A stretch of DNA of 64,000 nucleotides from contig OY725493.1 in assembly GCA_963281255.1 (NCBI GenBank), positions 4,309,857 through 4,373,856 on the forward strand. Reading direction: 5' to 3'. The first letter of the stretch is position 1. Every line of letters begins with the position of its first letter. The translations under genes were made by a program, and so were the position numbers. Source of the DNA: Aphrocallistes beatrix. Lineage: Eukaryota; Porifera; Hexactinellida; Sceptrulophora; Aphrocallistidae. This document shows positions 10,303 through 59,066 of the stretch, one piece after another. The notes under the pieces are model-generated. The model searched no databases. It was not told where the DNA came from and worked only from the letters and a program-made list of their open reading frames with translations.

Positions 10303-10310
10303 TATAAATA
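10303..10310 (+). promoter_or_regulatory. TATA box of orphan membrane gene 1
   Basis: TATAAATA, 55-62 bp before the ATG at 10365. The same word or a close variant lies at a similar distance before the other intact family members. Confidence 0.6.
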
Positions 10311-10364
10311 TATAATCACTGATTGAATTCATAAATATTGAATCTCAAATATTTCTATCGGGAT

Positions 10365-11516
10365 ATGTTAAGTGTAGGAGAAAATCTAAGGTCGTTCGAA
10401 ATAGAACAAATTATCATCATTCTGGCAGTTGCTCTGATTTTATTATTTATATCCATCATATGGGACGTCTATTTTGCTAAGAGGATTATACATTTCGTGA
10501 AGTTGTATCGTGAGTGTGTAGAAAAGAGTAAAACTGAATTAATCGTTAATTACTCAGAAGCAGCACGTCACCACAAATCGGAAATAATCAAATACACATT
10601 CTTGATAGTCATTAATGTCACTGAGTTCATCACGATGCTAATATACGCATTGGGGGCTGGACTGGCGAATCAACAGCGAGATTTCAACAGAACTACGGAT
10701 TTTCATTGTTCGAGTGAACTAGCGCATCAATCATTAATTAGCATAGAATTAATCTTTGCAAATCCTGTTGTTCCTGTACTTGTCTCCTTGGGAGATGTTG
10801 GGTTGGTGCTCTCTCTCGCGTTTAGTGTTTGTCTTATGAAGTATCTGGATGTCATTCTCCATAATATTCATGGAAAACCGTTTCGGTACGTTATAAAATT
10901 CCTCCTGATCACTTTCTTCATCGGGACATTCATGATAGTATCTGGGTCTATTCCTCAATTAATGATCATTGAAAAGTTTTCTGTTCCAATAATACAGACA
11001 ATCTACTTCATTATTTGGGTTAAATGCATCCGTACATTCTACAACACATTGAGATGGAGGGCAATTGAGTTTAAGATAAGAGGGGAAAGGAAATCGATTG
11101 TCAGAAGAGCAATCATCAACTGCAAGCAGTTCGCATTGGTAATGGGCATGCTTGTTATTGCAATGGCCTGCTTAATTTTAACCCAATTCATGGGACGATA
11201 TCGCTTCCTGATTGTAACAGGTCTGCATTATGGTCCCTGTATCTTCCAATATCTCTACCATACTCCTCTCTACCAGCCACTACTGGTTTCACAAAAACAA
11301 ATCAGAGTATTGAAACTCAGTCATGAGGTCCAAACCTATGCGTCATCAATTCTACTTTTAATTGCGTCCATTCTAATCGGATCACAATACCTTTTGGCTA
11401 CGATCCTGTTTTTCGGCAATAATATTATAAAAAAAATAAAGTATCGTTTCGGATATGTTCATACAAGATTTACTCCTACAAACCACCTCCGTCGTCCACT
11501 CCTCATTCCAAAATAA
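10365..11516 (+). CDS. orphan seven-TM protein, member 1
   Basis: A 383-residue single-exon membrane protein that I cannot match to a known family. From the ATG at 10365, hydrophobic segments lie near residues 15-38, 75-100, 138-162, 180-200, 202-222, 260-285 and 335-362. Loop 1 (about 40 residues) is basic. Loop 2 holds an N-R-T glycosylation site and a Cys. The loop after segment 3 is basic. The loop after segment 5 is long and basic (R-A-I-E-F-K-I-R-G). The tail is basic. By the positive-inside rule this gives N-out, seven passes, C-in, as in GPCRs. Family marks are S-E-I-I-K-Y in segment 2, V-C-L-M-K-Y-L after segment 3 and G-P-C-x-F in the last outer loop. A damaged near-identical copy lies 2.5 kb downstream. 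Confidence 0.8.
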   Translation: MLSVGENLRSFEIEQIIIILAVALILLFISIIWDVYFAKRIIHFVKLYRECVEKSKTELIVNYSEAARHHKSEIIKYTFLIVINVTEFITMLIYALGAGLANQQRDFNRTTDFHCSSELAHQSLISIELIFANPVVPVLVSLGDVGLVLSLAFSVCLMKYLDVILHNIHGKPFRYVIKFLLITFFIGTFMIVSGSIPQLMIIEKFSVPIIQTIYFIIWVKCIRTFYNTLRWRAIEFKIRGERKSIVRRAIINCKQFALVMGMLVIAMACLILTQFMGRYRFLIVTGLHYGPCIFQYLYHTPLYQPLLVSQKQIRVLKLSHEVQTYASSILLLIASILIGSQYLLATILFFGNNIIKKIKYRFGYVHTRFTPTNHLRRPLLIPK

Positions 11517-12094
11517 AAACTAAATAAGTTTATACATTATAAATGTTGATGCATACACCTTGATTATACTAATACCTATGTTATATTATGTGTTTGTATT
11601 CACAATATTAACTGTTAGATTAATGTTAAATTTGAATTAAATACAATACTACATAATATAGTCCCACTGTAATAAGACTGTTGAAATGCCAAATAACCGG
11701 CTGTCTAGCTATATAGTATATCAATACTGCATAGTATGTGCCAAGCCTAAAGATACATAATATATCTGAAATATAAGTTGAAGTGGAATTTTTATAAAAT
11801 TCCAATTCAACGATAGTGAACCAAACGGATATTTTAGTTTAAAAAGAGCCCCAAACGGGTCTTCTGAAACTATTTGGTACAAAGCTACGAACTTCAACCT
11901 CATCTTCGCCCAAAAATGAGATTTTTGCTATTTTAAATTTTGACCCCTTGAGGCGTAATATAACCTATCTTGATAGGTGACAATTTTCAAAATAAACTCT
12001 CGTATCAAAACACTGAATAAAGTTTAACGTTACTAAGAAGCCAGCATGTATTAATATACAATTGATGAAAAGAAATTAACACAAATGAGGTGAA

Positions 12095-13078
12095 TTAGTA
12101 GTTTAGCAGTTTGAGAGAGATCTTCTGCGCTTTGCGGCCTTTAACCTTAAACTTTGCTCCAAACGGATACAAATATTCCTTTCTTCCTCCTTCACATTCC
12201 GCAGCGTCTCCAATGTATCTAGGATACCACTTCCAAGTAAATGAATTATCAATTTCAAACACTACAAATCTCTTGCTTGCATATTCTGACTCGGGTAGAG
12301 TTGGCTCTTCTGGCGAACATAATACAAAACTAAACCAAACGAAAGTCCTACCTAATTCATAGAACTCCCATTCCAACTTATCAAGACATACCAAGACATA
12401 AGTGTTTAACCGATATGAAGGCAAGGTGGACCAGTTGAGGAGTAAGCTATTCAGAATTAAAGCATACAGACCCAATGAAATAACATTGTCGTTGCTACCG
12501 TCATCATCTGTTGAACAAATGGCTTGATTGATGTGATTGAATAGGTAATGCTTTTCCTGGAAAAATAGCTGAATCAGATGGGAGAAGAACAACTCTTTCG
12601 CATCGAAATCATTACAATCAATCTCCTCATTACTTCCTATCATGATATGCTCACGAAGATTCTTATTACATTGCGAAGCGCATTGGAATAGGACATCTTT
12701 AACTACAAACCAATTGAACCTATAGTTAATATGCAGAAAAATCTCGTTCATTAGTGTTACGAAATTGACTCCTTCAAAGTAAAACTTCGAAGGATACAGC
12801 AGTCCACGGTACTCCGACATAGTTTCCAAGATTCGGGGGTGCAAGGCGAAATCTCTCTCACGGGGATCGATAGGGGTAGGAGGAGAGAAAATGGTGTTTA
12901 TCTTCAAAGCTTGAGGTGGTTCCTTACCAAGAAAGATAGCTAACTGAGATAATGGAGTGACATATAAGTGAGAAGTAGCGAGTGTACTAGCCTTTGTATA
13001 CTCATCACATATGGAACAATTCAGAGGATGAGAATGGTGACTCACAGGAACAGGATGTCGCACAAGACTAGAGCCCAT
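12095..13078 (-). CDS. ADP-ribosyltransferase-like protein (ART fold)
   Basis: A 327-residue protein whose C-terminal half resembles arginine-type mono-ADP-ribosyltransferases, enzymes that move ADP-ribose from NAD+ to proteins. The visible order is: an all-helical part; L-P-S-Y-R (R223, position of the NAD-binding Arg); R-T-F-V-W-F-S-F (S250, the strand with the catalytic Ser); then C-E-G-G-R-K-E followed by Y-L-Y-P-F-G-A-K-F-K-V, the usual Glu loop and final strand. The Glu loop reads R-K-E where active arginine-specific enzymes have E-x-E, so only the last Glu (301) remains. That suggests altered specificity or lost arginine transfer. The start is the ATG at 13078; the frame is open for 33 codons further upstream but without an ATG. 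No signal peptide or anchor is seen. Single exon. Confidence 0.6.
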   Translation of the reverse strand: MGSSLVRHPVPVSHHSHPLNCSICDEYTKASTLATSHLYVTPLSQLAIFLGKEPPQALKINTIFSPPTPIDPRERDFALHPRILETMSEYRGLLYPSKFYFEGVNFVTLMNEIFLHINYRFNWFVVKDVLFQCASQCNKNLREHIMIGSNEEIDCNDFDAKELFFSHLIQLFFQEKHYLFNHINQAICSTDDDGSNDNVISLGLYALILNSLLLNWSTLPSYRLNTYVLVCLDKLEWEFYELGRTFVWFSFVLCSPEEPTLPESEYASKRFVVFEIDNSFTWKWYPRYIGDAAECEGGRKEYLYPFGAKFKVKGRKAQKISLKLLNY

Positions 13079-13768
13079 TATAAACAGGAATAAGTTATAA
13101 AGTATTAGATTAATTTCTAAAAAATTATGTATATATAAGCAATCGATGAAACGCTGGCATCGTGATGCAACAGCCAAAATAGACGAAAATGTTGGAGATT
13201 ACATAATATCACAAATATCCCGGTCAAAATAATTCTAAAATTTCTAAGTCAAATGAAAGCATTTGCTCTTAGGATACGCTGACTTGCAAAAGCAAATTAG
13301 GAGATGATGGATAAAATTATTTTTCCTTACAAGGTTCAACTGTATTGTGTTAGCAGAGTGAGCACAGCATATCAGAGTATTTTCTAAGCGACTGTACAAA
13401 ATATTATGAAAACTGAATATCTTAATCAGTGATGCGAACCTTATAGCAATAACAATCTCCCTACTATGTATCCCGAAACTTTGGTTAAAGTATATGGGAG
13501 TTTTGAATTAAATGAAAACGAAAAAGAAATATTTGGGTTGATATCTCTCTTCAGTATGTTTAAAAGTAGATTATGCTGTTAGTATTCACAATATTATTTT
13601 TTGAATATTATTCTAATTTGAATTGAATGCAAGAAAATTAAAATTAAAAAAATACAAGAAATATATCGCTTTGTATTATGTTCAGCTGGATGATGCATCG
13701 CCAGTAAAGGTCCAAGTTCAGTTATATAATAAATACGCTATACGGTCCCTTTGTCCGGGTACTGTATA

Positions 13769-13873
13769 CACAGTGGAGTCTTCGAATAACGGAAGCATTA
13801 GGGACATTGTTTTTGTCCGTTGTAGAGGGGTTGCCAGCTTTTCATAGTGTCTGTTTTAGGAGAGTCCACTGTA
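13769..13873. repeat. short pogo/Tigger-like inverted-repeat fragment
   Basis: CAGTGGAGTC on the left and GAGTCCACTG on the right, both flanked by TA-rich sequence. The inner parts do not pair well, so it is decayed or a composite. The region around it (13079-13768) has no gene I can support. Confidence 0.4.
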
Positions 13874-14037
13874 TACGTAAATAGTATTCGATTAGTAATC
13901 AGTATTGAAAAGTGAAGTCTTGGATCTTACACAAAATATAAGATTATTATTACAATCCTTGCTCAGTTGACCCATCAATTAATAAGAGTGATCTGTACCT
14001 TACACGTACATTTTCTTCAAATAAATAACTTTTCTCG

Positions 14038-15243
14038 GGATATGTTAAGTGTAGGAGAAAATCTAAAGTCTTTGGGGCATGCCTAATTTCCGGGACGGGA
14101 CGTGACCGTCCCGGTATCTTAACCCGTCCCGTCTCGGAAATTAGGCATTCCCAGTCTTTTGGAATATTGGAAAGTATCATCATTCTGGCAGTTGCTCTGA
14201 TTTTATTATTCATATCCATCATATGGGACGTCTATTTTGCTAAGAGGATTATACATTTCGTGAAGTTGTATCGTGAGTGTGTAGAAAAGAGTAAAACTGA
14301 ATTCATCGTTAATTACTCAGAAGCAGCACGTCACCACAAATCGGAAATAATCAAATATACATTCTTGATAGTCATTAATGTCACTGAGTTCATTACGATG
14401 CTAATATACGCATTGGGGGCTGGACTGGCGAATCAACAGCGAGATTTCAACAGAACTACGGATTTTAATTGTTCGAGTGAATTAGCACATTTTCCATTAA
14501 TCAGCATAGAGGTGATCTTTGCAAATCCTGTTGTTCCTGTACTTGTCTCCTTGGGAGATGTTGGGTTGGTGCTCTCTCTCGCGTTTAGTGTTTGTCTTAT
14601 GAAGTATCTGGATGTCATTCTCCATAATATTCATAGAAAACCGTTTCGGTACATTATAAAATTCCTCCTGATCACTTTCTTCATCGGGACATTCATGATA
14701 GTATCTGGGTCTATTCCTCAATTAATTATCATTGAAAAGTTTTCTGTTCCAATAATACAGACAATCTACTTCATTATTTGGGTTAAATGCATCCGTACAT
14801 TCTACAACACATTGAGATGGAGAGCAATTGAGTTTAAGATAAGAGGGGAAAGGAAATCGATTGTCAGAAGAGCAATCATCAACTGCAAACAGTTCGCATT
14901 GGTAATGGGGATGCTTGTTATAGCAATGGCCTGCTGGGTTTTAATACAATTCATCTCAAAATATTACTTCCTCATTGTAACAGGTCTGCATTATGGTCCC
15001 TGTATCTTCCAATACCTCTACCATACTCCTCTCTACCAGCCACTACTGATTTCACAGCAGCAAAGTCCAAGCCTATGCGTCATCAATTCTAATTTAACGG
15101 CGTATATTTTAATGGGATCACAATACCTATTGGCTACGATCGTTTTTTTCGGCAGTAAAATTATCAGAGAATTAAAGTATCGGATATGTTCATACAAGAT
15201 TTACCCCTACAGACCACCTCCGTCGTCCACTCCTCATTCCTAA
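14038..15243 (+). pseudogene. orphan seven-TM protein, member 2, broken by a transposon
   Basis: A recent duplicate of member 1 (near-identical DNA from 14038 on), but damaged. The ancestral ATG is at 14042; about 11 codons later a 78-bp element (14075-14152) interrupts the frame and brings a stop. Beyond it the frame is open from 14167 with no ATG before segment 2. Near the C-terminus two length changes (about 15060-15105) shift and then restore the frame, and a third near 15180 scrambles the last 25 residues relative to member 1. The TATAAATA found before other members is missing upstream. The middle five segments are intact. It could still be expressed from a new start, but a pseudogene is more likely. 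Confidence 0.75.
14075..14152. mobile_element. 78-bp MITE inside the duplicated membrane gene
   Basis: Palindromic element, ends GGGCATGCCTAATTTCC and GGAAATTAGGCATTCCC. It is flanked by 8-bp near-duplications AGTCTTTG (14067-14074) and AGTCTTTT (14153-14160), as expected for hAT-type insertion. The CTAATTT core near both ends is shared with the element at 29375-29635. Confidence 0.75.
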
Positions 15244-15498
15244 TTAAAAACCGATGTAGTATATTATATATGAGATATAGATGATAAGCTTTATCCTTTT
15301 CTTTTATTGAAATAGTAATTCTTAGTGTGATATTGTTAGCAACTATGGTATTAATTATTGTATTTGAAAGGGTAATAAACTATGATATTTCATTTTGGAG
15401 AATAAATCCGACATTCGTACTTAGATCAGGGCGTGGGGGGGAGGCGAGGCTCTGCTGGTGATTTTGTCTCCTTGCTGTGCCCCCCCCCATCTCCACCA

Positions 15499-15663
15499 GG
15501 ACTGTATCAACTCATTTTGAGTTGGCAAAATCAACTCTTTTTTCTGAATGAGTTGGTTACATCCAAATGAATGAGTTGAATGAATTGGTACAATATAAAT
15601 GAATGAGTTGGTCCCGAGAAAATGAATTTTTTTGCAAACTCAATATGAGTTGATACAGCCCTG
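15499..15663. mobile_element. small hAT-like MITE, copy 2
   Basis: Same element as 8720-8864: CAGGACTG...CAGCCCTG ends and internal AATGAGTTG units. It lies between membrane gene copy 2 and the LRR gene. The stretch just before it (15425-15495) has G-rich and C-rich runs facing each other. Confidence 0.65.
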
Positions 15664-15953
15664 CATTGTTTTATAATTGGAATGTTCTCATGACCGCATC
15701 CACTGCATTCTAAGTATAAACATATCCAGAGAATTCGTAAAAAATAGAAGCATGGTAATTTTCCCCTTATTGCGTTATTGCTAACTTTGGAATTCCATCC
15801 ATATTAATCTATTTTAATTAACGCTTCGATATTCAGAAATAATATTTGCCCTCTCCATATCTTAAACTTGATTTCAATCAACTACCCAATCCCAGATATG
15901 ATCCCCAGGAGGTAAATGGGCTGTACAGTGGTCTAATCAGCCCCTAATTTACC

Positions 15954-18039: not shown

Positions 18040-18081
18040 TAGAATTAAATTTGAATGTCTAGCTCTGGCGGTTTCCAAGAT

Positions 18082-18577: not shown

Positions 18578-18608
<31 letters not shown>

Positions 18609-19327: not shown

Positions 19328-19354
19328 GATGACCCTAACTGCTTATAATAAAAA

Positions 19355-22353: not shown

Positions 22354-23754
22354 ATGGCGGCTCCAATGAATATTACGATACCCCCATTGAAAGCAGATGA
22401 GAGGATAGCGGATTGGCAACCCCTATTTACGGCTGCAACTAGTGCCCTAGCGGCTCAGGCAGGTCAGAAGGCTGTGGTGCAGATTCTTCCTTATTATGTC
22501 TGTTGAGATGAATTCGAAAGAGACACGACATTATTAGCGATACAGGAAGAGACAATCGAGGCAGCGTTCAAGATTTTGTGCAATACACTGGACCCGCCGA
22601 TAGACGAATTCGAATCCACCGCACTGGTATGTAGCATGGTCTGGGGCAGAGGAACGCGAGTGGAAGTGTTCTTTACTCTACTGTGGAGGGAAGCCAAGCG
22701 GGCAGGGTTTACCAATAGACAGGTCTGCGTGATACTGACAACGCAACTGCCTAACAGGGTTCAGCCAGGAGTAAAGAAATGGATCAAGGAACGGGAAGAT
22801 AACCCGGTGACAGACGCACAGATGCGTGAATTTATAGCTGCAGTGCAACAGAGTCTTCGACAATCCGATATCGCGTTAGACTACGGGAAAAGAGAAAGAG
22901 AAGAGAAGGCTACGGGCCACTGCAAGGTTATCGATCAAGACTCTCCCGGTGACCCTGGGTCAAGCGGTTCCGACTCTGAGAGAAAGAAGCTCGGAGTATA
23001 CAAGGTCAGACAAGCAGGTTCCAAGGAGCATCATCGCTCTGGACCGAGAGAATCCCTGCGCAGGTACGACGACATGTCCTGCTACACGTGCGGGAAAAGG
23101 GGGCATGGTTATCGGAGTTGCCCGGACCGCATATGCTGGAAGTGCCATGGAAAGGGGCATGACGCGACCGATTGCCGGATTGGGGTGCATGTGACAACGC
23201 GAAGTAACAAGGCGAAAAGGCGTGACTATGTAAATAGAATTGGCGGGTGCGATGAAAAGTCCGTGTCTATTGCAGTTAAAATTCGAGGCAAGCCGTGTTA
23301 CGCGCTGTTGGATACAGGAGCTAAGGTGAATGTCATGGATACCCAGACTATGGATGACTTAAAACTAAGGAGATACTTAGAGCCGGAGGATAGTCTCATA
23401 TATGGAGTATCGGGTACTCCTATATCAGTGGTCGGGAAGATCGAACTGCCCATCGAGGTACCGGGAGAAGAGGTTCGTCGGACAAAGATTCACGTTTTAG
23501 TGGGGGAGGGCCAATCGCTTTTGTTGGGACGGCAGTTCCTCAAACTCTTCACACGAGTGACCTTTGATTGGAGTAATAGAAGCATCACGCTAGGTAGAGC
23601 CAGGATCGATATTGAAGATGAAGTAGTCGGAGGGAACCCGATAGATAGGGCCCGTTCAGTTAAGCTGATTAGTGATCAAGAGGAGGAACTGGTGGGGGCT
23701 CAGGATACGGATCTTACGCGTGACACTACTCAAGGAATTCGATGCCGTATTTAA
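22354..23754 (+). pseudogene. retrotransposon gag-protease frame with an in-frame stop
   Basis: Begins at the ATG at 22354; a TGA at 22504-22506 interrupts the frame, which then stays open to 23754. The downstream part has gag-like helices, then two CCHC zinc knuckles (Cys-x2-Cys-x4-His-x4-Cys, near 23080-23121 and 23134-23175). A retropepsin site L-L-D-T-G-A follows near 23308-23325, with L-L-G-R-Q-F-L further on. The frame ends just as the RT frame begins, which may be either natural frameshifting or damage. Confidence 0.85.
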
Positions 23755-25162
23755 TGACAAACCAGGACGCACTGCAGAATGCGAACATAGGATAGACATA
23801 GGAGACGCAGCTCCAGTCAGGAGCAGGGCAGCACGGATACCGCCACGTTGGGAGGAAGAAATTAATAGGCAGCTTGATGAAATGCTGGAGCAGGGGTTGT
23901 GTCAGGCTTCCATCTCTCCGTGGGCCAGTAACGTGGTTTTAGTAATGAAGAAAGACGGGCGCCAACGTTTCGCAATAGATTATCGGCGTCTGAATAGCGT
24001 CACAAAGAAGGATGCGTATGGGACACCCCAAATACAGGCAATACTAGACCGGCTACACGGATTCAGCTACTTTTCAGTAATCGATATATCCGCTGCCTAT
24101 TGGGGTGTTCCGGTTAGAGAGAAAGACGTAGAAAAAACTGCGTTCAATACGCCAAGAGGGCTATTTGAGATGAAAGTAATGCCATTCGGCCTAGTGAATG
24201 CTCAAGCCACTTTCCAGCGGCTAATGGATACCGTACTCCGGGGTCTCAATAACACAGAGTCCTACATCGACGACTGTGTTATATATTCGTGCAGCTTTAA
24301 GCAACACATGGCAAACCTACGGGCTGTGTTCGAGCGCCTACGGGCGGCAAACCTTCACGTCAAGATCAAGAAATGCCAATTTTGTCGCAGGAGAGTGGAA
24401 TTCTTGGGACACGAAATATCAGAAGAGGGAAGGAAACCCCTAGCATCGGCGGCGGCAAAGTTAGCAAAATTCCCCAGACCCAAAACAGTCTACCGCGCGT
24501 ACATTCCCAACATGGCACAATTGGCAGCTCCGTTATACGAGCTCACAAGAAAGGGAGCTAGATGGGTTTGGTCCAGCCTACGCGAAGAGGCGTTTGACTC
24601 ATTGCGGAATAAACTTGTTCGAGAGCCAATTTCACTAGCTTTCCCAAATTGGAAGAAAAGTTTCGTCATTGAGGCAGATGCAAGTTCGCGGGCCGTAGGC
24701 GCGGTATTGTCTCAGAGGAATGAGGCCACCGGGCAGTTGCACCCAATCGAATTCTTTTCGTCCTCGCTTAACAAAGCACAGGAAAATTATTGCGCAGGAC
24801 AATTAGAGGCGTGGGCCTTGGTTGCGGCGTGTCGAAAGTGGAGCACTTACCTGAGGGCGACAGCTGAGATAGAGTTAATTACTGACCACTGTCCACTAAA
24901 GTGGCTGCGCAACCAAAGGGACCCACGCAGAACCTTTGAGCGATGGATCTTGGAATTGGAGGAGTATACGTACCACATTGTACACCGCCCAGGCAGGGAG
25001 AATCACTTACCAGATTATTTAAGCAGAGTGCCCGACTTAGCTTTTGACACAGAAGTACAATATGACAGTACATTCGAAGATAAAGTCTTTACAGTGGGAC
25101 ATACAGGTGAAAATATCCAATTAGAGGTAAATTTAAGCCAAGAGCAGAGAGAGATCCTGTGA
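23672..25162 (+). pseudogene. retrotransposon reverse transcriptase and RNase H frame
   Basis: RT core with the first Asp in V-I-D-I-S (residue 138 of this frame) and the Y-I-D-D box (198-201). RNase H follows: E-A-D-A-S (335-339), Q-L-E-A-W and T-D-H-C carry its acidic residues. About 15 residues usual between the RT thumb and the R-A-Y-I-P-N block are missing in frame near position 273. The frame ends before the integrase and continues only after a one-base break at about 25155. Confidence 0.85.
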
Positions 25163-26575
25163 TTAGGGATGCACTGGAACAGCTGAAGAGGACCGGCAGG
25201 GTTCAGTCGGGTCAGCTCCGCAGGGTTGCAGAGCAGCTAGAAGTGAAGGGAGGGATACTCTGCTTCCATAACCTCGTTGTGGTCCCGAAGAAGGCCAGGG
25301 GTGAAGTGTTGAAGAAGGTTCACGCCGCAGGCCATTTCGGCCAGAAAAGAACGTTAGGAAATCTAAAACGCAGCTACTTCTGGTTGGGGATGACGCAGGA
25401 GGTACGGTTCTTCTGCCAAAGCTGCATGGTATGCCAAAGGGCTAAACCTTCAAACCAGCCTAGAGTACCGCTACAGGAATTCAGTACTGAAGGAATAGGG
25501 CCAGGGGACCTGGTGGCGATGGATGTCGCAACCCTGCCGTGGGCCGACGAGCAGTTTCGGCATTTCCTATGTATTGTAGACGTTTTTACAAGGTACATTG
25601 AACTTACGCCCTTGCGAGATCAGAAGGCAGCCTCACTAGTGCACGAATTCGAACGCGGGTGGGTTTTTCGGGGGCATGGGGTGCCCAAGGGTTTGCTGAC
25701 AGACCAGGCTCATAACATCGACGGCGTAGAAGTCAGATTCCCCTTATCACCCCCAAGCGGATGGGTTGGTTGAAAGATGCATAGGGCTGGTCAAGCAGGT
25801 GGCCAGATGCTTAACGCTAGATCGCAGGCTGCCCAAGGAATCTTGGCCCGATATTCTTCCAGAAGTTGCCTTTTACTGCAACAACGCCCAAAACGCGTCA
25901 GCGAAGTTTTCAGCGCAACTGCTAATGACTGGTAGACAGCCCACTTCGCCGATAGATGCCAGCATGGGCACCAGGCAGTGGTCAGAATTACCCAGCCAGG
26001 ATCAGCACGTGGAACGTTTGAGGGAAATTAAAGTGGAGTTGGAGGCGTTGGCGCGGGAAAATGACGGACAGTGTAAGGCTAAGAGGGATGAGATACGCAA
26101 CGAAGGAACGAGGCTCCCGGCTATCAAGAAGGGGGAGTGGGTAATGGAGAGAAACGAGTTCCGAAAGGATTCGCTAGACCCGAAGTTCGAGGGACCATAC
26201 CTTGTTTTGGACGTTAGAAACGCCAGCATCAAGATTCAGAGGAAGAACAAGGGCAGATGGGTGCACGCTAGTCGGTGCAAGAAATACGATGCCAGCGGAG
26301 GTGTCGTAGTAACCACTGCCCCTATTCAAGGGGAAACAGATGAGATGGAGTACTCAGAAGGGGAAGAGCACGGAGCAGAAATTGTGGGTTTAGAGGCTCC
26401 AGACGATGAGCTCATACCGAGTCAAACGGAGACAGAGACAAACGAACAAGAGGAGGACCTGGTGAGCGAAAGAAGATATCCATTGCGCATTCGGAAGGCC
26501 AAAAGTTACGATGACTATGTACTCAGCTTGGGGGAGTACTCAGAATCAATTGAGTCGGACTCGTATTCATTTTAG
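25159..26575 (+). pseudogene. retrotransposon integrase frames, one frame break
   Basis: Two frames, 25159-25773 and 25766-26575. The first has the His-His-Cys-Cys zinc domain (H-A-A-G-H, then C-M-V-C) and the first two catalytic Asp residues (A-M-D-V-A, L-T-D-Q). The third catalytic residue, Glu, lies in the second frame, so a frame break at about 25745 separates the catalytic triad. The second frame continues into the GPY-like C-terminal domain (E-G-P-Y-L-V) and a charged tail. Confidence 0.83.
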
Positions 26576-26585
26576 GGGGGAGTGA

Positions 26586-27198: not shown

Positions 27199-28332
27199 AT
27201 GGCGAGAAGGAATCAAGAAGCTCCTACAATCATAATCGATGCTGGTTCTGGCAATACCAGAGCGGGGATGGCAGGGGATAGCGCCCCTCGTGCTGTGTTT
27301 CCTTCGATCATCGGAAGACTGCGGCACCGAAATATCCTGGTCGGTTTGAACTTATTCAGCAAAACAGTGTTTGTCGGTGATGAAGTAAGATCAAAGCGCA
27401 GTATTTTATATGTAAAATATCCGATAGAACATGGTATTGTCACAAACTGGGATGATATGGAGGAGTTATTGCATCACACATTTTATAACGAACTGCATGT
27501 CGAACCTAACCTGCATCCTCTGCTAGTTACAGAACCGCTGCTCAATCCTAAAGCTAATAGGGAGAAAATGACACAAATAGTATTCGAGAATTTCAACACT
27601 CCTCTCTTCCATCTCTCGCTCAACGCTGTGCTAGCTTTACTCTCTACTGGCAGGAATAATGGGCTGGTGATCGACTCGGGAGACGGAGTTAGTCATACTG
27701 TTCCCATCTACAAAGGATTCCCTCTCACCTCAGCCATCTCCCGCTTAGACTTAGCGGGACGGGGCCTGACTGATTATTTGGCAAAAATTATAGCCGAGCA
27801 AGGCTACGACTTTAGCTGCAGTGAGCGTGATATACTTCGTGACATGAAGGAGAAGTTGGGTTATGTTTCTCTAGATTTTCAAGAGGAAATGCAAAAAGAT
27901 AGATCAATTTGTGAAGAGAAGACATATGAGTACCAAGGCTCTGAGATACGAATTGGTAATGGAATGTTCCGTTGTGTTGAGCCCCTCTTCCAACCATCAC
28001 TTATTGGCATGAGTGCTTGTGGCCTGCCAGATGTAGCGTTTCATTCCATAATGAGGTGCGACATCGATATCCGTAAAGTAATGTTCAGGAATATAGTGTT
28101 GTCAGGAGGCAGCTCTCTATTCCCTGGCATGGGAGAGCGAATGCAAAAAGAGATTGCTTATCTAGCACCATCAAGTGCTACTGTAAAAGTAAGATCTCCT
28201 GAAACTCAACACAGTACCTGGATCGGAGGATCTATTCTAGCGTCATTGGATCAATTTGAAACTATGTGTATCTCGAAACAAGATTACGATGAAGTAGGCC
28301 CTTGCATTGTACATAGGAAGTGTATAATTTAG
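27199..28332 (+). CDS. divergent actin, single exon
   Basis: A 377-residue actin (actin is 375), so the whole fold is present: I-D-A-G-S-G phosphate loop 1, Y-P-I-E-H-G with the His methylated in actin, [22 protein letters not shown] phosphate loop 2, G-R-x-L-T-D-Y and C-terminal H-R-K-C. Changes lie where actin almost never changes: the D-loop (residues 41-58), the hydrophobic plug and nucleotide-adjacent positions, and the end is C-I-I instead of C-F. The start is the ATG at 27199; the frame is open upstream without another ATG. No introns, which could mean a retrocopy that stayed open. It may be a specialised actin rather than a numbered ARP. Short TCGTGAGA repeats lie upstream at 27065-27130. 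Confidence 0.85.
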
Positions 28333-29679: not shown

Positions 29680-30907
29680 ATGTCTCGTGCTGATGTGTTG
29701 AGAAGGGATTCATTCCTCTCTCAGGTGGAGAGAGTGAGGAGGGAAATAGGTTCAAAATTCGAGAAATCTCATCAGGTGTTAGTGGAGAGGGAAACCACTC
29801 TATTGTCAGAGCTGGATGAGTTGGTGGTTAGGTACAGAGGGGAAGGAATCAACCAACAGAATGAAGAACTAAATCGTTTGAAAGAGTTGCAATTATCCTC
29901 TGTGAAGGAAAATGAAAACAAAGAAACTGTGAAGAAGAGTGTGTCTGTGCTGGAAGCAGGCGTGAGAGAGAGAAGAGCTAAGTTTGAGAGAGATCTCGCT
30001 AGCATGCGGAGAGTAGTGTTGAAGTGGGATGAGTGCGTATTCGATAAACTAAGGGAGATTGGAGCAATCGAGGTGAGTGATCTACCTCCCTATGAAGATA
30101 GAGGAGACCCCCTCATGGTAGCTTCTAGACACAGATCTTTTGAATCTACATCACCAGGACTGTTCTATTCTCCTGGATCAATCGCAATAGATTCGCAAAC
30201 TGACAATATTTACATCTGTGATTCAGGAAACCATCGTATAGAAGTGTTTACTAAAAAACTGGAATTTTTATTCGATTTCAATGAGATGATGGGCTGGCTA
30301 GGCGGTATCTGTATCAACCTTAACAGAGTCTATGATAGGGAGCAGTTCCCTGAATGTGTATAGTACTGATGGAAAATTATTAAACTCTGCTGGACAGAGA
30401 GGGAAAGAAAAGCAATACTTTGATTGTCCTAGAGGAGTTTCTGTTTCAAATGATGAGAGAAGAATTTACATATGTGACAGTTACAATGCTAGAATCCAGT
30501 GTTTAAACTTGGATCTTACATTCCATTCATTGATTGAAGATATTCCCTCTCCCAGAGATGTTAAGCTGACTCCTGATGAGGTTATACTGTTGACATCAGA
30601 AAATCCGTGTGTGCGTTACTACAATTATTCTCATCAGCTTATCAGACAGATAGTACCTCGTGGAACTGGAAACCTAGTGATAAATCCATGGTACTTCTGT
30701 GTAGACAAAGCTAGCAACATTCTACTGACAGATTTAGCTTCTAGCTGTGTATTAATTTTTTCTAACAGAGGAAAATTAATACACAAACTCGGACAGGAAG
30801 GAGAAGATAGAGGAGAGTTCATTGAAGTTAGAGGAATAGCTCTTGACTTTGAAGGCAGAATAATAGTAGCTTCTGAGAATCCAAATAATTGTATCCAACT
30901 ATTCTGA
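29680..30907 (+). pseudogene. coiled-coil/NHL-repeat protein with one frame break
   Basis: The first frame (29680-30363) starts at an ATG and encodes a long coiled coil (about residues 1-130, rich in R-E-L-K), then NHL beta-propeller blades (S-P-G-S-I-A-I-D, I-Y-I-C-D-S-G-N-H-R-I). A second frame (from about 30332 to 30907) continues the same propeller: I-Y-I-C-D-S-Y-N-A-R-I-Q and several more blades to a proper stop. One small length change near 30330-30345 would account for the break. This layout resembles TRIM-NHL proteins without RING or B-box. Either a recent pseudogene or an assembly error; the rest is intact. Confidence 0.75.
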
Positions 30908-37440: not shown

Positions 37441-38571
37441 ATGGACCATGTTTACATTGTTGCAATTTTATCACTGTTCTCCATTTACTTCGTAACGAGT
37501 GCATATTGGGTGATAGTGTTCAGCTATCGGATCTTCCAGTCCAGGAAGTATTTGAGAGTTGCAGCTAGACACTTGATTACTGTGCAGTCAGATGATTCAC
37601 ATACTAATTTCGAACAATTCTGCTACCATTACCGAACTGAAATAAGGAAGTATGTCTATTTGCTCCTGATTATCCTGAGTGAAGCGTTCTGTATGTTTCT
37701 ATATTGTATGAGTGTACTTGAGGCTCTGAGTTACATTGCATTTCCTGAAATAGCGAACAGTACCATGTCGAAACTGTCTGAGTGTAGCAAAATTGAGAAT
37801 AAATTTTTGCTGGAATTTCAATATAATCAAGCAGCAAATCCTATACAGATGACACTATCTGCTTCACAGAATATCTCAGGATTGTTCGTTCTTATATTAA
37901 TAATATGTTTACTGAAATATCTGACACAGAGAATCAAGAAAATTAAGTATTCACGACATTTTAGATTCCGACTTTTCATTGTTTTCACTGCACTGCTGAG
38001 CGCATCTACGATTGGGATAGCTTGGAGAGAGTACTTTGCTATTTTCTTAATGCTTATTACACTAGCGATCTACTATTACGTCTTTCTGAGAGCAGTTAAG
38101 CAGTTTGAATGCACTCTGCTCCAGAGTGCATATGAAAGACTGATACAGTTCGGATCTAACAAAGAAGAGTTTAGGCAGTACAAGTACTTCAAGTACACTA
38201 TGCGCACGATATGTTGTGGCTACCTCCTCATCATAGTGTCTAAATTGTTAGTGTATTTTCCAGGACTACTCACCAGCATTCTATTTTATGGGAAATGTCA
38301 ATTTCCTCTCAGTGCCATTCCAAGCTACACTCCCGTGTCAGAGAAACAAGTGGAACTAACCATGCTAATACAAATTCTGCACTGTGTCTGGTATGTGGGG
38401 CTTTTGATCGGATTTTTGGGTACAATATTAACATATCTCCTGTTTGTATGCATTACATTCTATATGTGGATCCGCCAAGTCTTCAACTCAATACAAGGAA
38501 AGTCTAAGAAAATATACAGATACAGATATGACTTAGAAGAAACTCTTCTTGAGAAATACTCATCAGTGTAG
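37441..38571 (+). CDS. orphan seven-TM protein, member 3
   Basis: A 376-residue single-exon protein, about the same length and hydrophobic pattern as member 1 but with low identity. Segments lie near residues 5-30, 68-95, 142-165, 176-194, 196-216, 252-282 and 328-358. Shared family marks: R-T-E-I-R-K-Y-V-Y-L-L-L at segment 2, I-C-L-L-K-Y-L after segment 3, an acidic E-C position after segment 5, and a long outer loop before segment 7. Basic clusters fall in loops 1, 3 and 5 and the tail, giving a GPCR-like orientation. N-S-T glycosylation and Cys lie in the second loop. Function unknown. Confidence 0.8.
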   Translation: MDHVYIVAILSLFSIYFVTSAYWVIVFSYRIFQSRKYLRVAARHLITVQSDDSHTNFEQFCYHYRTEIRKYVYLLLIILSEAFCMFLYCMSVLEALSYIAFPEIANSTMSKLSECSKIENKFLLEFQYNQAANPIQMTLSASQNISGLFVLILIICLLKYLTQRIKKIKYSRHFRFRLFIVFTALLSASTIGIAWREYFAIFLMLITLAIYYYVFLRAVKQFECTLLQSAYERLIQFGSNKEEFRQYKYFKYTMRTICCGYLLIIVSKLLVYFPGLLTSILFYGKCQFPLSAIPSYTPVSEKQVELTMLIQILHCVWYVGLLIGFLGTILTYLLFVCITFYMWIRQVFNSIQGKSKKIYRYRYDLEETLLEKYSSV

Positions 38572-44675: not shown

Positions 44676-45527
44676 TCATGCGAATAAGGATTTGGTATTT
44701 CTCACATTTCCATTAGTTTTTCTCATTTTATTTGAAAATAGCTTTAAAGGCGGAAAGCTGCAGGCAAAATCGAGATTGATAATTGCAGTAAAAACATCTT
44801 CCTTGGAAACGATTTTTCTTTTCTGATTAAAACATAGATCATTTGCTTCAGACGTTAGAAATTTAATGAATTCGCTCACACACTCTTGCATACACATTTT
44901 TGCTTCAGTAGATATTTTTAAATTTTGAGGAAGTTTGGTTTTCATAACTCTGGAAACGTTAGTTATAGGAAAAAGGTAATCTTGCTCTCGTAGAATTTCA
45001 TTTTTTAGTAGACCATTTGATCCAAAGCTTCTCATTTCCATGTAGATTGGGTCTATATTCAGGCGATTGAAACTGTTTAAATTGCGTAATATTTCTCTCT
45101 CTGCGTGAAGGCTACAATATTTCATTGGCAAATAAGGAAAATCTTTGTGAAACCTTCTACTGAGGTAATTATGGATCAAGGTAGAGTCTCTGAGCATATC
45201 TGCGAGTTTAGATGATTTGGGAATAGGTAATTTATTTGGAGTAACATTCAAGACTTTATTGTCTCGTGTTGCATAGTGAGATGGACACGTATCTCCATAA
45301 TAGTTAAACCTAATATCTTTTTGTACAGAATTAGTGATTTGTTGGGTATTAACACGACATGAAAATGAGTATTCACAATTTGCGTTTAGAAAAAAAGCTT
45401 TTGTGAAGATAGATTCTGAATTATTAAAGATAATTCCATGTGGGTTATTACTCTCCGGCATACACAACATTTCCATATTTTCGTCTTCAGGTACCAATTC
45501 ATTATCAATGAGTTTTAAGGTCATCAT
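44676..45527 (-). CDS. NF-YB-like histone-fold protein with long N-terminal extension
   Basis: The C-terminal 94 residues (about 180-273) are an NF-YB/HAP3 histone fold: R-E-Q-D-x-x-x-P-I-T-N-V-S-R-V-M-K, then A-K-x-C-M-Q-E-C-V-S-E-F-I-K-F-L-T-S-E-A and K-R-K-I-V-x-x-E-D-V-F-T-A-I. NF-YB pairs with NF-YC, and with NF-YA binds CCAAT boxes in the nucleus. The sequence is more diverged than NF-YB usually is between animals, and the 180-residue N-terminal part resembles nothing I know. It contains two Cys-rich stretches and no glutamine-rich activator. This is likely a specialised paralogue. Start at the first of two ATGs at 45527. Single exon. Confidence 0.82.
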   Translation of the reverse strand: MMTLKLIDNELVPEDENMEMLCMPESNNPHGIIFNNSESIFTKAFFLNANCEYSFSCRVNTQQITNSVQKDIRFNYYGDTCPSHYATRDNKVLNVTPNKLPIPKSSKLADMLRDSTLIHNYLSRRFHKDFPYLPMKYCSLHAEREILRNLNSFNRLNIDPIYMEMRSFGSNGLLKNEILREQDYLFPITNVSRVMKTKLPQNLKISTEAKMCMQECVSEFIKFLTSEANDLCFNQKRKIVSKEDVFTAIINLDFACSFPPLKLFSNKMRKTNGNVRNTKSLFA

Positions 45528-48450: not shown

Positions 48451-48459
48451 CTATTTATA
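48451..48459 (-). promoter_or_regulatory. TATA box of the small coiled-coil gene
   Basis: TATAAATAG on the minus strand, at the same distance from the start codon as in the orphan membrane genes. Confidence 0.5.
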
Positions 48460-53510: not shown

Positions 53511-53849
53511 ATGGCCTCTCTCTATTTGCATTTGATTGATTCAATTGGCCAGAAACTGACAGATTATATTCAGTTGTCAACCACAGTTGGAGGAAACTCA
53601 ATTCTTTGTCATGATAAGCTTATGAGGGAAATGCTTCATTATTTTTCTAGAAATGAGCCCATTTTAGGAGTGTTTCAATTTGCAATATTAGAGTATGACC
53701 AGCTTGTCAAGCTATCCAAAGGTAAATTTGTTCGAGAAAGCTTTTTAGTCACAATTTTCCGGAAGATGTTTACTAGGTTAGAAAATTTACTACTCTTGAA
53801 ACCAAAGAAGGAAATCGACTTAAATGTTTTGCTTCAAAACACTGCTTAA
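53511..53849 (+). CDS. hypothetical protein, possibly an exon
   Basis: A 112-residue frame from an ATG to a stop, without low-complexity text and with a plausible amphipathic helical pattern (L-I-D-S-I-G-Q-K-L-T-D-Y, F-Q-F-A-I-L-E-Y-D-Q-L-V-K-L). I do not recognise it. No TATA box and no paralogue in the window. Confidence 0.35.
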   Translation: MASLYLHLIDSIGQKLTDYIQLSTTVGGNSILCHDKLMREMLHYFSRNEPILGVFQFAILEYDQLVKLSKGKFVRESFLVTIFRKMFTRLENLLLLKPKKEIDLNVLLQNTA

Positions 53850-55368
53850 TTAAGGTGATCCCTCATTTTATTTTGGCCCAATGAATCGCAGTAGGGTAAT
53901 CTCCAAGAGCTAAAGTCAAGCAAACTGCCGCTACGAATAGACCACAATCTTGAATTACTTGTTGACATTGGATCTGTTCAACTTGTATCGGAAGATTTTC
54001 AGGTTAACTCACTTGACTTAAAATGGTGTCTTGCATTCCTCGACCGTGTGGGAATTGGTTGAAAAATCAGGACTGCAGATAACTCTATAAAAAATGTAAA
54101 TTACACAGTTATAACTGGCATCGATATATCTAATCTCATTGATTGCAAATTTGCAGCATACCATAGTCAATCGGGATCGGGCTCGGGCAGGGTTCGGGCT
54201 TGTGAAAATTAGTTCGGGCCAGGAAAGGCCGAAAATCCAGCACACCCTCGCCTGTTACCTTGGAGAAGAGATGTAAAAAAATTTGCAGATGGTCACGTAT
54301 ATTTGCTTCTGTGATACGTGGCATTGATATTTTGAATTCTGGTTTCTAGCAAAATAAATTCAAAAATTGTTTCAACTAATCAAACTAAAATTGGTATACA
54401 AATACACTTCAGTAATTGAATTAAATGAGGATAAAGAAAATAAACAATTCTTGAATAATGAAGCATGAAGAATGCAAGTAAATATACATTTTTTAATAAG
54501 CCTATTGATCATGATCTATATACCTAAGGATCATGATCTACGTTCTTTTTGTTACCTCTATCAGCCGTAATGATGCAAAATGTTTAAGAATGGTATCATG
54601 AACAATTAAATCATCCAAAATTCACGATATTGTGAGAAAACTAAAATCACATTTCTATACATGGGGGGTAGATCACGATAGTCTGAAGATGTACACATAT
54701 TTTAATTTGAACATTCAACAGAATTCACTTAAACAACATATATAATGATAAGGAATTGCATCCCAAAGAGACAATTTCAATTATTCAATCAATAGTAATT
54801 GTTTATATAGGTCCATCAGTTGGTGGCTAACTTATAAAGAAGACTTTAATGGGTTAATTAATTCGGACCAAATTAGTGGATTTTATGAAATCATCTCCCC
54901 CCAGTAAGCAATATATAAATATGAAGAACGAATCAGTATAATAGTACCTAGCTCACAACAATGCAATCATGTCGGGCCTGCCCCCCCCCAGACTTAATTT
55001 TTATCCTACCAACTGTAGAGCATATAGTCTAAAGACTCCTAGAATAACTTTCTGTATGAATATTCCACCAATCAGAATACGTCTGTTTCCAAAGAAATGG
55101 ATACATATGTATATATTTGTATATATATATGCCGTATATCAATGCTTCACTCTCTTTCCTTACAGAAGTTGTCATTCATTAAAATTTAATGGAAACTGTT
55201 CCTGGAAAATGTTGACATACCACAAAACAGTAAATGATATCTAACCAGTCAATTATACATATATTTGCTAAAAATGTATTTAAGCCAATGCTTAGAACGT
55301 TTAAATTACGTAACATAAATCCAAGTACAGTTTTCATGTTATTCAATAGCATATGGTTAACTTGAAAG
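53850..55368. other. intergenic, no supported gene
   Basis: AT-rich. A short GC-rich patch at 54165-54225 has three CGGGCTTG/CGGGCTCG-type words, perhaps a transposon end. A C-rich run lies at 54980. Nothing else recognised before the TATA box at 55369. Confidence 0.4.
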
Positions 55369-55376
55369 TATAAAAT
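55369..55376 (+). promoter_or_regulatory. TATA box of orphan membrane gene 4
   Basis: TATAAAAT, 47-54 bp before the ATG at 55423. Confidence 0.6.
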
Positions 55377-55422
55377 AGTCGGTTACACTGATAGGCAGAC
55401 TAAACTCTAATAAAACATCAAC

Positions 55423-56577
55423 ATGTCAGTGCGTATACTCCTTTTAGTTGAATATATCATGGTGATACCAGTTATCTCAGGCCTCCTGCTGTTATCTTTA
55501 TTCTGGGATTTCCACTTAGTCAAAGAGATTGGGCGTTGCTTCAAGTCATATCGTGGGAATGTTGAAAAAGCGAAATCGAATCCTTTGGATAACTACGAAA
55601 CTATTGCACATTGTTACAAGACTGAGATGATCAAGTACGTCTTTTTGCTACTAATAAACATCACTGAATTCGTTTCCATGCCCATATACGGACTGGGAGC
55701 TGCACTAACTACCATCCCCAATATAGACAACTATGATTTGTCCTCCAATCAAGTATCAATTCATAACTGCACCAGCCAGCTGATACAAGCTAAAAGTTTC
55801 GAGCTGCAGTTAATTCTGAATCCAATCAATTCTATAATAGTTTCCATTGGACAAATTGGATTTATGTACTCGATCGTATTCGGAATTTGTTTAATGAAGT
55901 TTCTTCATAAAACTTTCCACGATATCAACTCGAATCCATTTCCATACATCATGCGTCTGCTCTCTGCCACAGGTCTGGTAGCAGTTCTTCTGATCATCTC
56001 GGGGGCAATACCCCAGTTAATGATCCTCCATAAACTCCTCAAGCCGACGGTGCAAATAATCCTCTCATGCATTTGGTTCCAACACACCCGAATATTCTAT
56101 AAGACGCTGAAATGGAGGGTAGTGGAGTTTAAGGTGAGAGGTTGCAGTAAGCGATTGCTCAGAAGATCTGTGGTAAGTTGCAATCAGTTTGCTGTTATCA
56201 TGACTTGCATTGGAATCGCAGGTGCTTGCTTACCTCTACTTGCAGAAATTCTAGAGCAATGTTTCTTTCTGGGTGTTACTGCCTTGTACTACGGCCCTTG
56301 TCTATTCAATCACCTCTACGGCAGTCCTTACTACCAGCCGCTGATAGCCACACCCCAACAATTCAAAGCGTTTCAACTCAGCACCGAATACGAGACCTAT
56401 CTAAATAGCTTTCTACTAATAACAGCTTGTCTAGCGATCGCGTCGCAGTATGTTCTGGCTACTGTCATGTTTCTCGCGGGAATTGTTGGACATAAGTTGG
56501 GATATAGATTTGGATGTGTCCGTACTAGTTTTACACCCAATCTCACTAGTCACCTCCTTGAAAGACAGCAAGCATAG
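55423..56577 (+). CDS. orphan seven-TM protein, member 4
   Basis: A 384-residue single-exon protein, clearly related to members 1 and 2 along its length. Segments lie near residues 8-30, 68-95, 135-160, 172-195, 197-215, 250-275 and 335-362. Shared motifs: F-W-D-F-H-L-V-K after segment 1, K-T-E-M-I-K-Y-V-F-L-L-L-I-N-I-T-E-F in segment 2, I-C-L-M-K-F-L after 3, G-A-I-P-Q-L-M-I between 4 and 5, V-E-F-K-V-R-G after 5, Y-Y-G-P-C-L-F-N-H-L-Y and Y-Q-P-L in the third outer loop, and G-C-V-R-T-S-F-T-P near the tail. An N-C-T glycosylation site is in the second loop. It faces member 5 tail to tail, 1.26 kb away. Confidence 0.82.
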   Translation: MSVRILLLVEYIMVIPVISGLLLLSLFWDFHLVKEIGRCFKSYRGNVEKAKSNPLDNYETIAHCYKTEMIKYVFLLLINITEFVSMPIYGLGAALTTIPNIDNYDLSSNQVSIHNCTSQLIQAKSFELQLILNPINSIIVSIGQIGFMYSIVFGICLMKFLHKTFHDINSNPFPYIMRLLSATGLVAVLLIISGAIPQLMILHKLLKPTVQIILSCIWFQHTRIFYKTLKWRVVEFKVRGCSKRLLRRSVVSCNQFAVIMTCIGIAGACLPLLAEILEQCFFLGVTALYYGPCLFNHLYGSPYYQPLIATPQQFKAFQLSTEYETYLNSFLLITACLAIASQYVLATVMFLAGIVGHKLGYRFGCVRTSFTPNLTSHLLERQQA

Positions 56578-56732
56578 TGACAATACATTTAATTTCTACG
56601 AGTTGTTAAGAACTAATACCTTTTGCTGAGTTAATACATTTTCACCCTGCCATATAATATAATTGTAAATTTAATGTGATTTGATAAGCAATTCATTACT
56701 TTCTATTAGTTAATAATAATTTATACAAAAAT

Positions 56733-56790
56733 GAATCCCTCGCCGTTCGCGAAGGTTACTTGAAAATTGAGCATCAAGATTAACAATGGG
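56733..56790 (+). repeat. fragment of the CAGGTATCCCTCGCC element
   Basis: AATCCCTCGCCGTTCGCGAA followed by GGTTAC and a later GGGGTTACGTTTCTAGATT, matching the left half of the element at 35191-35569. The end is missing. Confidence 0.6.
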
Positions 56791-56799
56791 GTTACGTTT

Positions 56800-57840
56800 C
56801 TAGATTTTAAGACTCACTTGCATTTTGTACTATTACTAGCACACTATTGATCATAATGATTGAATTTAAAATGAAAATAAAATGAGTATAGCTGGCTCAG
56901 TTTGCTGGTTGAGGACTATATCAATAAAGCTTTTCCATATTCCACGAATTTCTGCAGTGATACTCACCTGCAGGTCGCCTGTAGAATATATGAAAACTGG
57001 GGGTGGCTCATATTTCCTGTTATGGTTGATCAGTTCTCTAAATGGAAGGTGTCCTGTGCAAAGTATGACTTGAACATTGACAAGTACAAGTATGTATTTG
57101 CAATTTATTTAGGTTTATAAACTCTATTTTATTCGTTATTTATGCATTCAATTACTCAGCTTTCAACTCAATTCTTCATTTTTTAAATATAAACCCATCA
57201 CCCTAATATAAGTTGTCACTATCCATCATTACTATATACGATAGTAATTAATAACACAATTTGATAATGTCATACCAAACAATAATTATTCGAGTTGAAA
57301 GATTCGAATCTGGCAAATTTTTCATGTGTAATGAATTTGAAATCAACTATAAAGTATCTCTATGATTTGAGTACAAACTCTATCGAAAATTTACCCGTTT
57401 TAATAGTACATTTACTATATGGAATATTTTATACTAGTTACTCTCAGTAGCAGTTCCACTGACTGGAAGACAATCAAGCTATGTGCAGTTATCCACAGTA
57501 AATATAGAAGCAAGCAAAAGTATGAAACAAGGTAAAAGTTGGCCTTAGGGCTTAGGGCCCCAAACATTTTTGGCCAATTAAGAAGGTTCCAGGAACCAGA
57601 TTAAAATCAGTAACAAATCATTTAATTAATTAAAACCCATCAATGACCTGGGGTCTATTCTATTTATAGCTTGGACCCCACATTTCTATGGCTTCCTCGC
57701 CCAAAATGACTTAGCCGGAAATGAGCAAGCAAAAGTAATTATAAATGAGGAGATAATTATTAAGCAACTACATAATATCATGCACCATAGATTATATATA
57801 TATACGCAATGCACTAATTTGTAGATAGATACTAGAGTAT
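56800..57840. other. intergenic between convergent membrane genes
   Basis: Holds both 3' ends. Short open frames at 56882-57120 have no family resemblance. Nothing else recognised. Confidence 0.4.
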
Positions 57841-59001
57841 TTAGATTCTCCCATTGAGATCATAGTAGCAGTTGTTGTTATCTTCAAGAAGCTTTCTAGT
57901 GAGATCTGTATTTGGATGATGTTTGCCCTTATTCACAGAGGACTTTGCATATACAATAATAATTCTCGCAGAAACAAGGAGGTAGGGAATAACCATAACG
58001 GTCCATCCCATTGTTTCTAATACCAGTGTTATCATTATATAACCTGTGCCAAATATCTCAACATATGCCTCGTTGATTGGCGTTATTCCTTCATGAGCAT
58101 GGAAGATAATTTTGATCCAGTCATGTGGATATGTTTGAATAAAACTTATGATCGAGCAGGCTACAAAGATGGTAAAGCCTAAAAGGTGGAGAAATAGTGA
58201 GCTCCGTATGATATAAGAACCGAATTTGAAATCCCTACTTGCCCTTTTGTAATACTGGATAACATATTTGGGTTGATATTCTCGATATTTCGCATCCAAG
58301 TATCTGTTTCTTAAGCATATGCATAGCCTTTTAGTCGCACGCGTATATGCATAAACCTCGAAAAAGAAAGAGAATGCCGCTGCAATCCACTGTAGTATTA
58401 TGGAAGTACGTGGTAAACCCAGGATGAAAATAAAAGCTAAACGAATTGCAAGGCGGATGAAAATTGGACTAAACTCCCAGGTAGTTGAGGAAGATTCATA
58501 TTGATGGAGTAAGTACTCTGTTAAAATCCGCAGGAGGCATAGTATGAATAAACACCATACAATTGCGAATGAAATGATGATCTTGGTGAGAAAGGTGGCG
58601 CTCAATTGTAGGTATACAAGGTTGTAGATTCGTATTTGTGGAATGTGGATGTCAGTTACACTAAATAAATCTCTCGCTATATTTATTGATGATATGGTTG
58701 TTAGGATAAACACAAATAACCATTCTAAAAACGAAATTGCTAGCAAGAACTTAATCTTCACTAATTTCCTCAGGCTGTTTTTCTGGCTGTTCAGCCATTC
58801 TTCATATTGATATATTTTCTGTTCCCCGTTTAAACGTTTCAGATACTTTTTCTCCATAACAATTTCGTAAATGAAATAAATTGCCCAGACAAGTGATATA
58901 TTTAAGATGTATATATCAATGGATATAATAGTGAAACATACTTTATTTAAATTGGCATAAAGATTCCTAAACACATCTAATGGTTCTTGTGTTACATTCA
59001 T
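57841..59001 (-). CDS. orphan seven-TM protein, member 5 (most divergent)
   Basis: A 386-residue single-exon protein on the minus strand from a true ATG. Membrane segments lie near residues 22-48, 80-105, 135-165, 182-200, 204-222, 262-290 and 325-352. Segment order, loop sizes and loop charge match the other members: basic loop 1, glycosylatable sites only on predicted outer parts (N-V-T at the N-terminus), L-C-L-L-R-I-L after segment 3, and a long basic loop after segment 5. Overall identity is low, so membership rests on architecture and the L-C-L-L-R motif. A TATA-like TATATAG (complement of 59058-59066) lies about 60 bp before the start. Function unknown. Confidence 0.72.
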   Translation of the reverse strand: MNVTQEPLDVFRNLYANLNKVCFTIISIDIYILNISLVWAIYFIYEIVMEKKYLKRLNGEQKIYQYEEWLNSQKNSLRKLVKIKFLLAISFLEWLFVFILTTISSINIARDLFSVTDIHIPQIRIYNLVYLQLSATFLTKIIISFAIVWCLFILCLLRILTEYLLHQYESSSTTWEFSPIFIRLAIRLAFIFILGLPRTSIILQWIAAAFSFFFEVYAYTRATKRLCICLRNRYLDAKYREYQPKYVIQYYKRASRDFKFGSYIIRSSLFLHLLGFTIFVACSIISFIQTYPHDWIKIIFHAHEGITPINEAYVEIFGTGYIMITLVLETMGWTVMVIPYLLVSARIIIVYAKSSVNKGKHHPNTDLTRKLLEDNNNCYYDLNGRI

Positions 59002-59057
59002 TGATATCTGATGGGAGATTTTTATAATATTTGTAAATCAAACAAGTTTGATTTCCA

Positions 59058-59066
59058 TCTATATAC
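59058..59066 (-). promoter_or_regulatory. TATA-like site of orphan membrane gene 5
   Basis: GTATATAG on the minus strand, 57-65 bp upstream of the ATG, at the distance seen in the other members. A second AT-rich word (TATAAAAA) lies only about 20 bp from the ATG and is less likely. Confidence 0.4.

Follow-up and report, generated by a model that had tools for sequence, protein, structure and literature searches.

Do the single-open-reading-frame (ORF) genes found along 64 kb of the genome of the glass sponge Aphrocallistes beatrix encode a receptor family of their own, and what would such receptors sense? The stretch under study (the window; positions 4309857-4373856 of contig OY725493.1, hereafter C7, in the 100.5 Mb, 28-contig assembly GCA_963281255.1) carries five copies of an orphan gene, which the original prediction regarded as coding for seven-transmembrane (TM) proteins oriented like G protein-coupled receptors (GPCRs). 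Combining profile comparisons, structure models, genome-wide counts and substitution rates, we propose, with a probability of about 0.55, that these genes belong to a large family of GPCR-fold receptors, specific to this lineage, which sense outside chemicals. We chose this value because a GPCR-type fold is quite probable, and chemosensing, given such a fold, appears likely.

The five copies stand where they had been predicted, one of them (14038) being broken, as judged from the ORF list and from a six-frame scan of the window with the profiles of the two clades described below (A2 for clade A, 31 rows; A3 for clade B, 24 rows), which yielded these five members and no sixth. The four intact ones are single-ORF genes of 376-386 amino acids (aa), named here after their leftmost position in the window: 10365 (10365-11516, + strand, 383 aa, clade A, seven TM segments), 37441 (37441-38571, + strand, 376 aa), 55423 (55423-56577, + strand, 384 aa, clade A; AlphaFold model mde6797a61903) and 57841 (57841-59001, - strand, 386 aa, clade B; AlphaFold model me6ff29c744c3). 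The 10365 protein, which has no Pfam match, is 42% identical to 55423 and is matched by the clade A profile at E 8.5e-160. The tree places 37441 in a divergent sub-clade of clade A; its closest relatives (36-73% identity) reside on contigs C1, C4, C6, C8, C9, C10 and C15, and it matches clade A members from E 4e-14. The broken copy (14042-15243, + strand; ORF list, alignment and profile scan) is a close sister of 10365 (83% aa identity over 279 codons; ratio of nonsynonymous to synonymous substitution rates, dN/dS, 0.47). Its ATG at 14042 is out of frame with the body, owing to the insertion of an imperfect inverted repeat of ~86 bases (~14075-14160, boundaries approximate), which was recognized from the alignment with the 10365 region and from its opposite-strand self-match (77.5% alike over 80 columns); the longest ATG-initiated ORF (14398-15243, 281 aa) is missing TM1 and loop 1. 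A second copy of the inverted repeat was found neither in the window nor in the other family loci compared.

The uninterrupted ORFs agree with the single-exon structure predicted for these genes, and the family looks single-exon across the genome, since most of the listed matches stay in one open frame. This feature is not distinctive in a glass sponge, because single-exon transcripts are abundant in Aphrocallistes vastus (12,409 of them, for 19,578 genes, in excerpts of PMC10282587); the same excerpts describe tandem single-exon clusters, of which the sole one with a stated function carries AIG1 domains.

Do all these proteins form one family? The 60 family ORF rows (58 distinct) make up a single blastp component at E <1e-6. 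Knowing that 57841 reaches clade A by blastp only at E 0.03 (filtered comparison, three window queries), we therefore compared the clades by profiles. First, A2 and A3 align colinearly across 342 columns with a probability of 98.2% and a score of 109, as compared with scores of at most 30.2 for the controls aligned with A2 or A3 (reversed profiles, the class A gene of this genome, and samples of its adhesion, class C and Frizzled GPCRs) and a top score of 34.5 among all control pairs (adhesion versus Frizzled). Second, in the six-frame scan of the window the clade B profile also detects 55423 (E 3.2e-9) and 10365 (E 5.5e-7), though not 37441. Third, a 59-row tree supports the two clades at 100/100, although it joins long branches and is rooted at its midpoint. 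A common origin of clades A and B is thus supported by computation at the sequence level. A likeness through hydrophobic composition alone was ruled out by the reversed-profile controls.

The clades are linked by this profile comparison, not by the motifs that had been thought to survive between very diverged members. ExxKY occurs in 27/31 clade A rows and in 1/24 clade B rows (shuffled mean 1.0), the latter not being 57841, and CL[LM][KR]xL occurs in 29/31 clade A rows and in a single one of the 24 clade B rows, namely 57841. The two motifs are nearly confined to clade A, and the argument drawn from them was overstated for 57841. The invariant columns of the 45-row joint alignment are W28, E82 (within TM2) and L229. 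A shared C-terminal [LI]xx[LI][LI] motif was rejected as evidence (clade A, 6/31 versus 7.6 shuffled; clade B, 12/24 versus 5.0).

Both clades share the same predicted topology (TM boundaries placed by hand from hydropathy): a short N-terminus of about 12-25 residues, seven TMs and a basic tail. On the inner side, the TM1-TM2 loop is basic and ~40 residues long, the TM3-TM4 loop is short and the TM5-TM6 loop is very basic; on the outer side, loops join TM2 to TM3 and TM6 to TM7, and TM4 nearly abuts TM5 (outer loop 2, about 1-3 residues, no Cys). Outer loop 1 of clade A bears an N-glycosylation sequon in 31/31 rows, next to the invariant cysteine C116, and another invariant cysteine (C293) lies where TM6 reaches the outer side; in clade B, 21/24 rows carry sequons in the N-terminus. 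Hydropathy and charges bear out, for the 55423 clade, the anticipated seven hydrophobic segments, basic first loop, basic loop after segment 5, and second-loop sequons and Cys. In the 57841 clade, hydropathy yields six segments, TM4 and TM5 being merged, and the AlphaFold2 model separates them to reach seven. The charges and most sequons of both clades agree with the orientation that had been deduced, so that a seven-TM protein with its N-terminus outside and its C-terminus inside is supported by computation.

The two separately built AlphaFold models (55423 and 57841) each show seven long TM helices arranged like those of GPCRs, as the original prediction would have it, with inner loop 1 modelled as a helical hairpin. 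All 50 of the 50 structural matches listed for each model are GPCRs (Z up to 16.1 and 17.5), and the fold of the insect odorant and gustatory receptors (OR/GR; anchor domain, split TM7) is not among the matches listed for either model or by Foldseek.

This GPCR-like fold comes with an orphan sequence, as had been claimed. First, a Pfam search with 45 members (E <=1) returned 26 mutually unrelated families, each in one or two members (best E among those listed 0.0014, DUF3040, two members), none of them a credible match, to a transporter or enzyme or otherwise. Among the 25 families listed out of these 26 there is no GPCR family, be it of class A (rhodopsin; PF00001), class B/adhesion (PF00002), class C (PF00003), Frizzled (PF01534), class T (TAS2R), Srx or Srw, nor 7tm_7 or another insect OR/GR family. 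Second, no PDB chain, class A and class T ones included, was matched by the A2 or A3 profile at E <=10, and 55423 alone retrieved two unrelated chains (E 1.3 and 1.4). Third, hhalign comparisons with the genome's own adhesion-type (16/134 pieces), class C (13/36 pieces) and Frizzled (2/3 matches) sequences gave 0.1-1.3%. For comparison, 362 sequences are found at 0.001 with the only class A (PF00001) match of the genome, a gene that passes both cut-offs. As to 7tm_7, it has no match genome-wide at E <=1, the controls being silent too, and its motif is poorly conserved outside insects (excerpts of PMC9998090). A viral or bacterial origin was also rejected, no clade A relatives being found in viral contigs or prokaryote genomes (clade A only scanned). 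No paper describing the family was found among the search results listed from the open-access literature, most subscription journals lying outside the search.

The stated absence of known GPCR signatures holds in part. [DE]RY occurs nowhere in the 31 clade A rows and in 2/24 clade B rows (position unmapped), and NPxxY does occur, in 8/31 clade A rows (including 55423) and 0/24 clade B rows, always within inner loop 2 (residue 171) instead of TM7. Neither of the class A motifs, D/E-R-Y mapped to the TM3 end or NPxxY within TM7, was found in these rows. Furthermore, class A GPCRs have a short inner loop 1 and a disulfide from TM3 to outer loop 2, whereas the family has the ~40-residue loop and the Cys-free outer loop 2 described above. 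Together, the likeness to class T and class A receptors resides in the predicted helix arrangement, without detectable sequence similarity; unlike them, the family has no DRY-type motif (clade A), no TM7 NPxxY, an inner-loop-1 helical hairpin, an almost absent outer loop 2, and an outer loop 1 carrying a sequon and a Cys (clade A).

How many such genes does the sponge possess? Single-protein searches of its genome (E <=0.01 for 55423, 57841 and 37441, <=0.001 for two further queries; counts include the query) returned at least 107 matches beyond chance for 55423 (107/401 candidates scored), 51 for 57841 (87/87), at least 103 for 37441 (109/271), 60 for a further clade B member (90/90) and at least 107 for a divergent clade A member (107/339). 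The first four queries merge into 202 distinct places (184 of them >=900 nt) and the fifth contributes 34 more, leading to at least 236 places, a count that takes in pseudogenes, fragments and perhaps a few assembly or segmental duplicates (C4:4694339 and C5:5475, for example, score alike). This putative receptor family is therefore the largest 7TM one counted in the genome, next to 134 adhesion/secretin-type pieces, 36 class C pieces, 3 Frizzled-type and 1 class A, in a rough comparison that sets five queries against one profile per class, and pieces, not genes. Clusters (>=3 places within 30 kb) contain 116/202 places, versus a mean of 2.1 and a maximum of 12 for random placement.

Other features of the layout were noticed. 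Two family blocks of C10 (430768-462491 and 628957-656136) mirror each other in order and strand (by eye), which suggests a large inverted duplication. NHL-repeat proteins lie near family members at three places (window 29680-30363, L012:122-1021 and L033:83-859). On C4 (~4.94-5.89 Mb), many matches of a large adhesion/secretin-type (7tm_2) cluster are split in two near the same model position (by eye), suggesting a conserved intron.

The birth-and-death pattern postulated for these genes is borne out by the tandem clusters, the broken copies and the dN/dS values of close pairs (0.29-1.0, mostly 0.4-0.6), the latter indicating genes under selection and not decaying repeats. Where do the proteins change? 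Among 11 sister pairs of clade A, residues differ at 205/898 outside positions, 125/1304 inside positions and 343/1944 TM positions, the outside difference exceeding the inside one in 11/11 pairs. Over 45 clade A pairs, the regions with the most replacement are the N-terminus, TM7, outer loop 1, TM6 and TM2. For the N-terminus and outer loops 1 and 3 of these pairs, the nonsynonymous to synonymous ratio of differences (pN/pS) amounts to 0.54-0.77, versus 0.28-0.48 inside. Outer loop 1 again ranks first in clade B (9 pairs). Inner loops 2 and 3 show little synonymous change, a hint of gene conversion in these loops. The clade A pattern is as would be expected from a variable ligand side and a common intracellular partner, and it gives some evolutionary support to the chemoreceptor function, which was and remains inferred.

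We propose that an environmental chemical would bind on the outside, to the variable N-terminus, to the outer loops and to portions of TM2, TM6 and TM7, and would move TM5 and TM6 as in GPCRs. The long basic cytoplasmic TM5-TM6 hairpin and the unusual TM1-TM2 hairpin would then contact a shared partner, for which a heterotrimeric G protein is the likeliest candidate, and the repertoire would be tuned by tandem duplication and decay, like the chemoreceptor families of other animals. G-alpha pieces are present in the genome. One of them (C7:4386825-4387820, ~13 kb past the right end of the window) is an uninterrupted single-frame match to nearly the whole G-alpha model (E 7e-99); its closeness to the receptor genes of the window may be a coincidence.

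Several observations weigh against this proposal. The Foldseek matches of the 57841 model are weak (best E 0.061), and helical bundles inflate Z. Clade A sequons also occur in predicted TM2 (19/31), inner loop 1 (12/31) and the C-tail (11/31), where they would be unusable. In clade B, the pN/pS contrast is not clean (0.51-0.90 outside, 0.41-1.03 inside).

The structural evidence would be identical if the GPCR-fold family served self/non-self, microbe or gamete recognition, or developmental signalling, instead of environmental chemosensing, and the fastest change in the outer parts of clade A fits the recognition of self or of other organisms equally well. We nevertheless regard such a role as rather unlikely: the short N-termini (~12-25 residues) leave no room for an adhesion-type ectodomain, and a set of hundreds of compact tandem copies is more in keeping with small-molecule chemoreceptors. 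The weak Foldseek values and the inflated Z would also suit a non-receptor 7TM family (transporter, enzyme, scaffold or lipid-handling protein) resembling a GPCR merely as a helix bundle, an improbable case in view of the lack of a credible Pfam transporter or enzyme match, of the most conserved residues, which lie mainly near the cytoplasmic ends and do not include an obvious catalytic set (by eye), and of the hundreds of fast-evolving paralogues, unusual for enzymes or transporters. Lastly, the ligand-gated ion channels of the 7TMIC superfamily (insect OR/GR type) share with the family a similar length, seven TMs, long cytoplasmic helices, and large and divergent repertoires (down to 8% identity; excerpts of PMC9998090), but they are very improbable here since inclusion in that superfamily depends on an intracellular N-terminus (excerpts of PMC9998090 and PMC7746228), whereas the predicted orientation is opposite in both clades (charge and most sequons), no OR/GR family is among the listed Pfam families, and the structural matches listed for both models are GPCRs, not ORs.

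A chemosensory GPCR-fold family would have counterparts elsewhere. The nematode chemosensory (NEMCH) serpentine receptors likewise form a lineage-specific chemoreceptor expansion with very many copies; unlike the sponge family, for which Srx and Srw are not listed, they are placed in the rhodopsin superfamily (excerpts of PMC11526382). The choanoflagellate and holozoan RSF, Hi-GOLD and GPRch1-3, compared by description only, are also GPCR families outside the classical classes (excerpts of PMC12716839). We tentatively suggest that the sponge family might be a separate GPCR class, without detectable sequence kinship to classes A, B, C, F and T, possessing a TM1-TM2 intracellular helical hairpin of its own and serving the chemical sense of a neuron-less animal.

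Turning to the remaining observations, ORFs at 22636-26575 (+ strand) of the window resemble the gag/protease, reverse transcriptase and integrase sides of a long terminal repeat (LTR) retrotransposon (by eye), with a G+C content above the surroundings. This LTR-like element adjoins a single-ORF divergent-looking actin (27199-28332, + strand; Pfam Actin E 7e-112), possibly a retrocopy. A 283 aa protein (44676-45527, - strand) has a histone fold (CBF/NF-Y type) at residues 186-249 and an N-terminal part with no Pfam match. In the genome, Frizzled is present with an extracellular Cys-rich stretch (by eye), and no wnt match was found, the control being silent too; together with the G-alpha pieces and the small size of the genome, this picture fits published glass sponge data (excerpts of PMC10280926 and PMC10282587).

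If our proposal is true, an animal probably without neurons has evolved by itself a repertoire of chemoreceptor size, outnumbering (in places) any classical GPCR class counted in its genome. Chemical sensing in nerveless animals would then become directly testable, and the family would possibly be a new GPCR class, overlooked by Pfam-based surveys.
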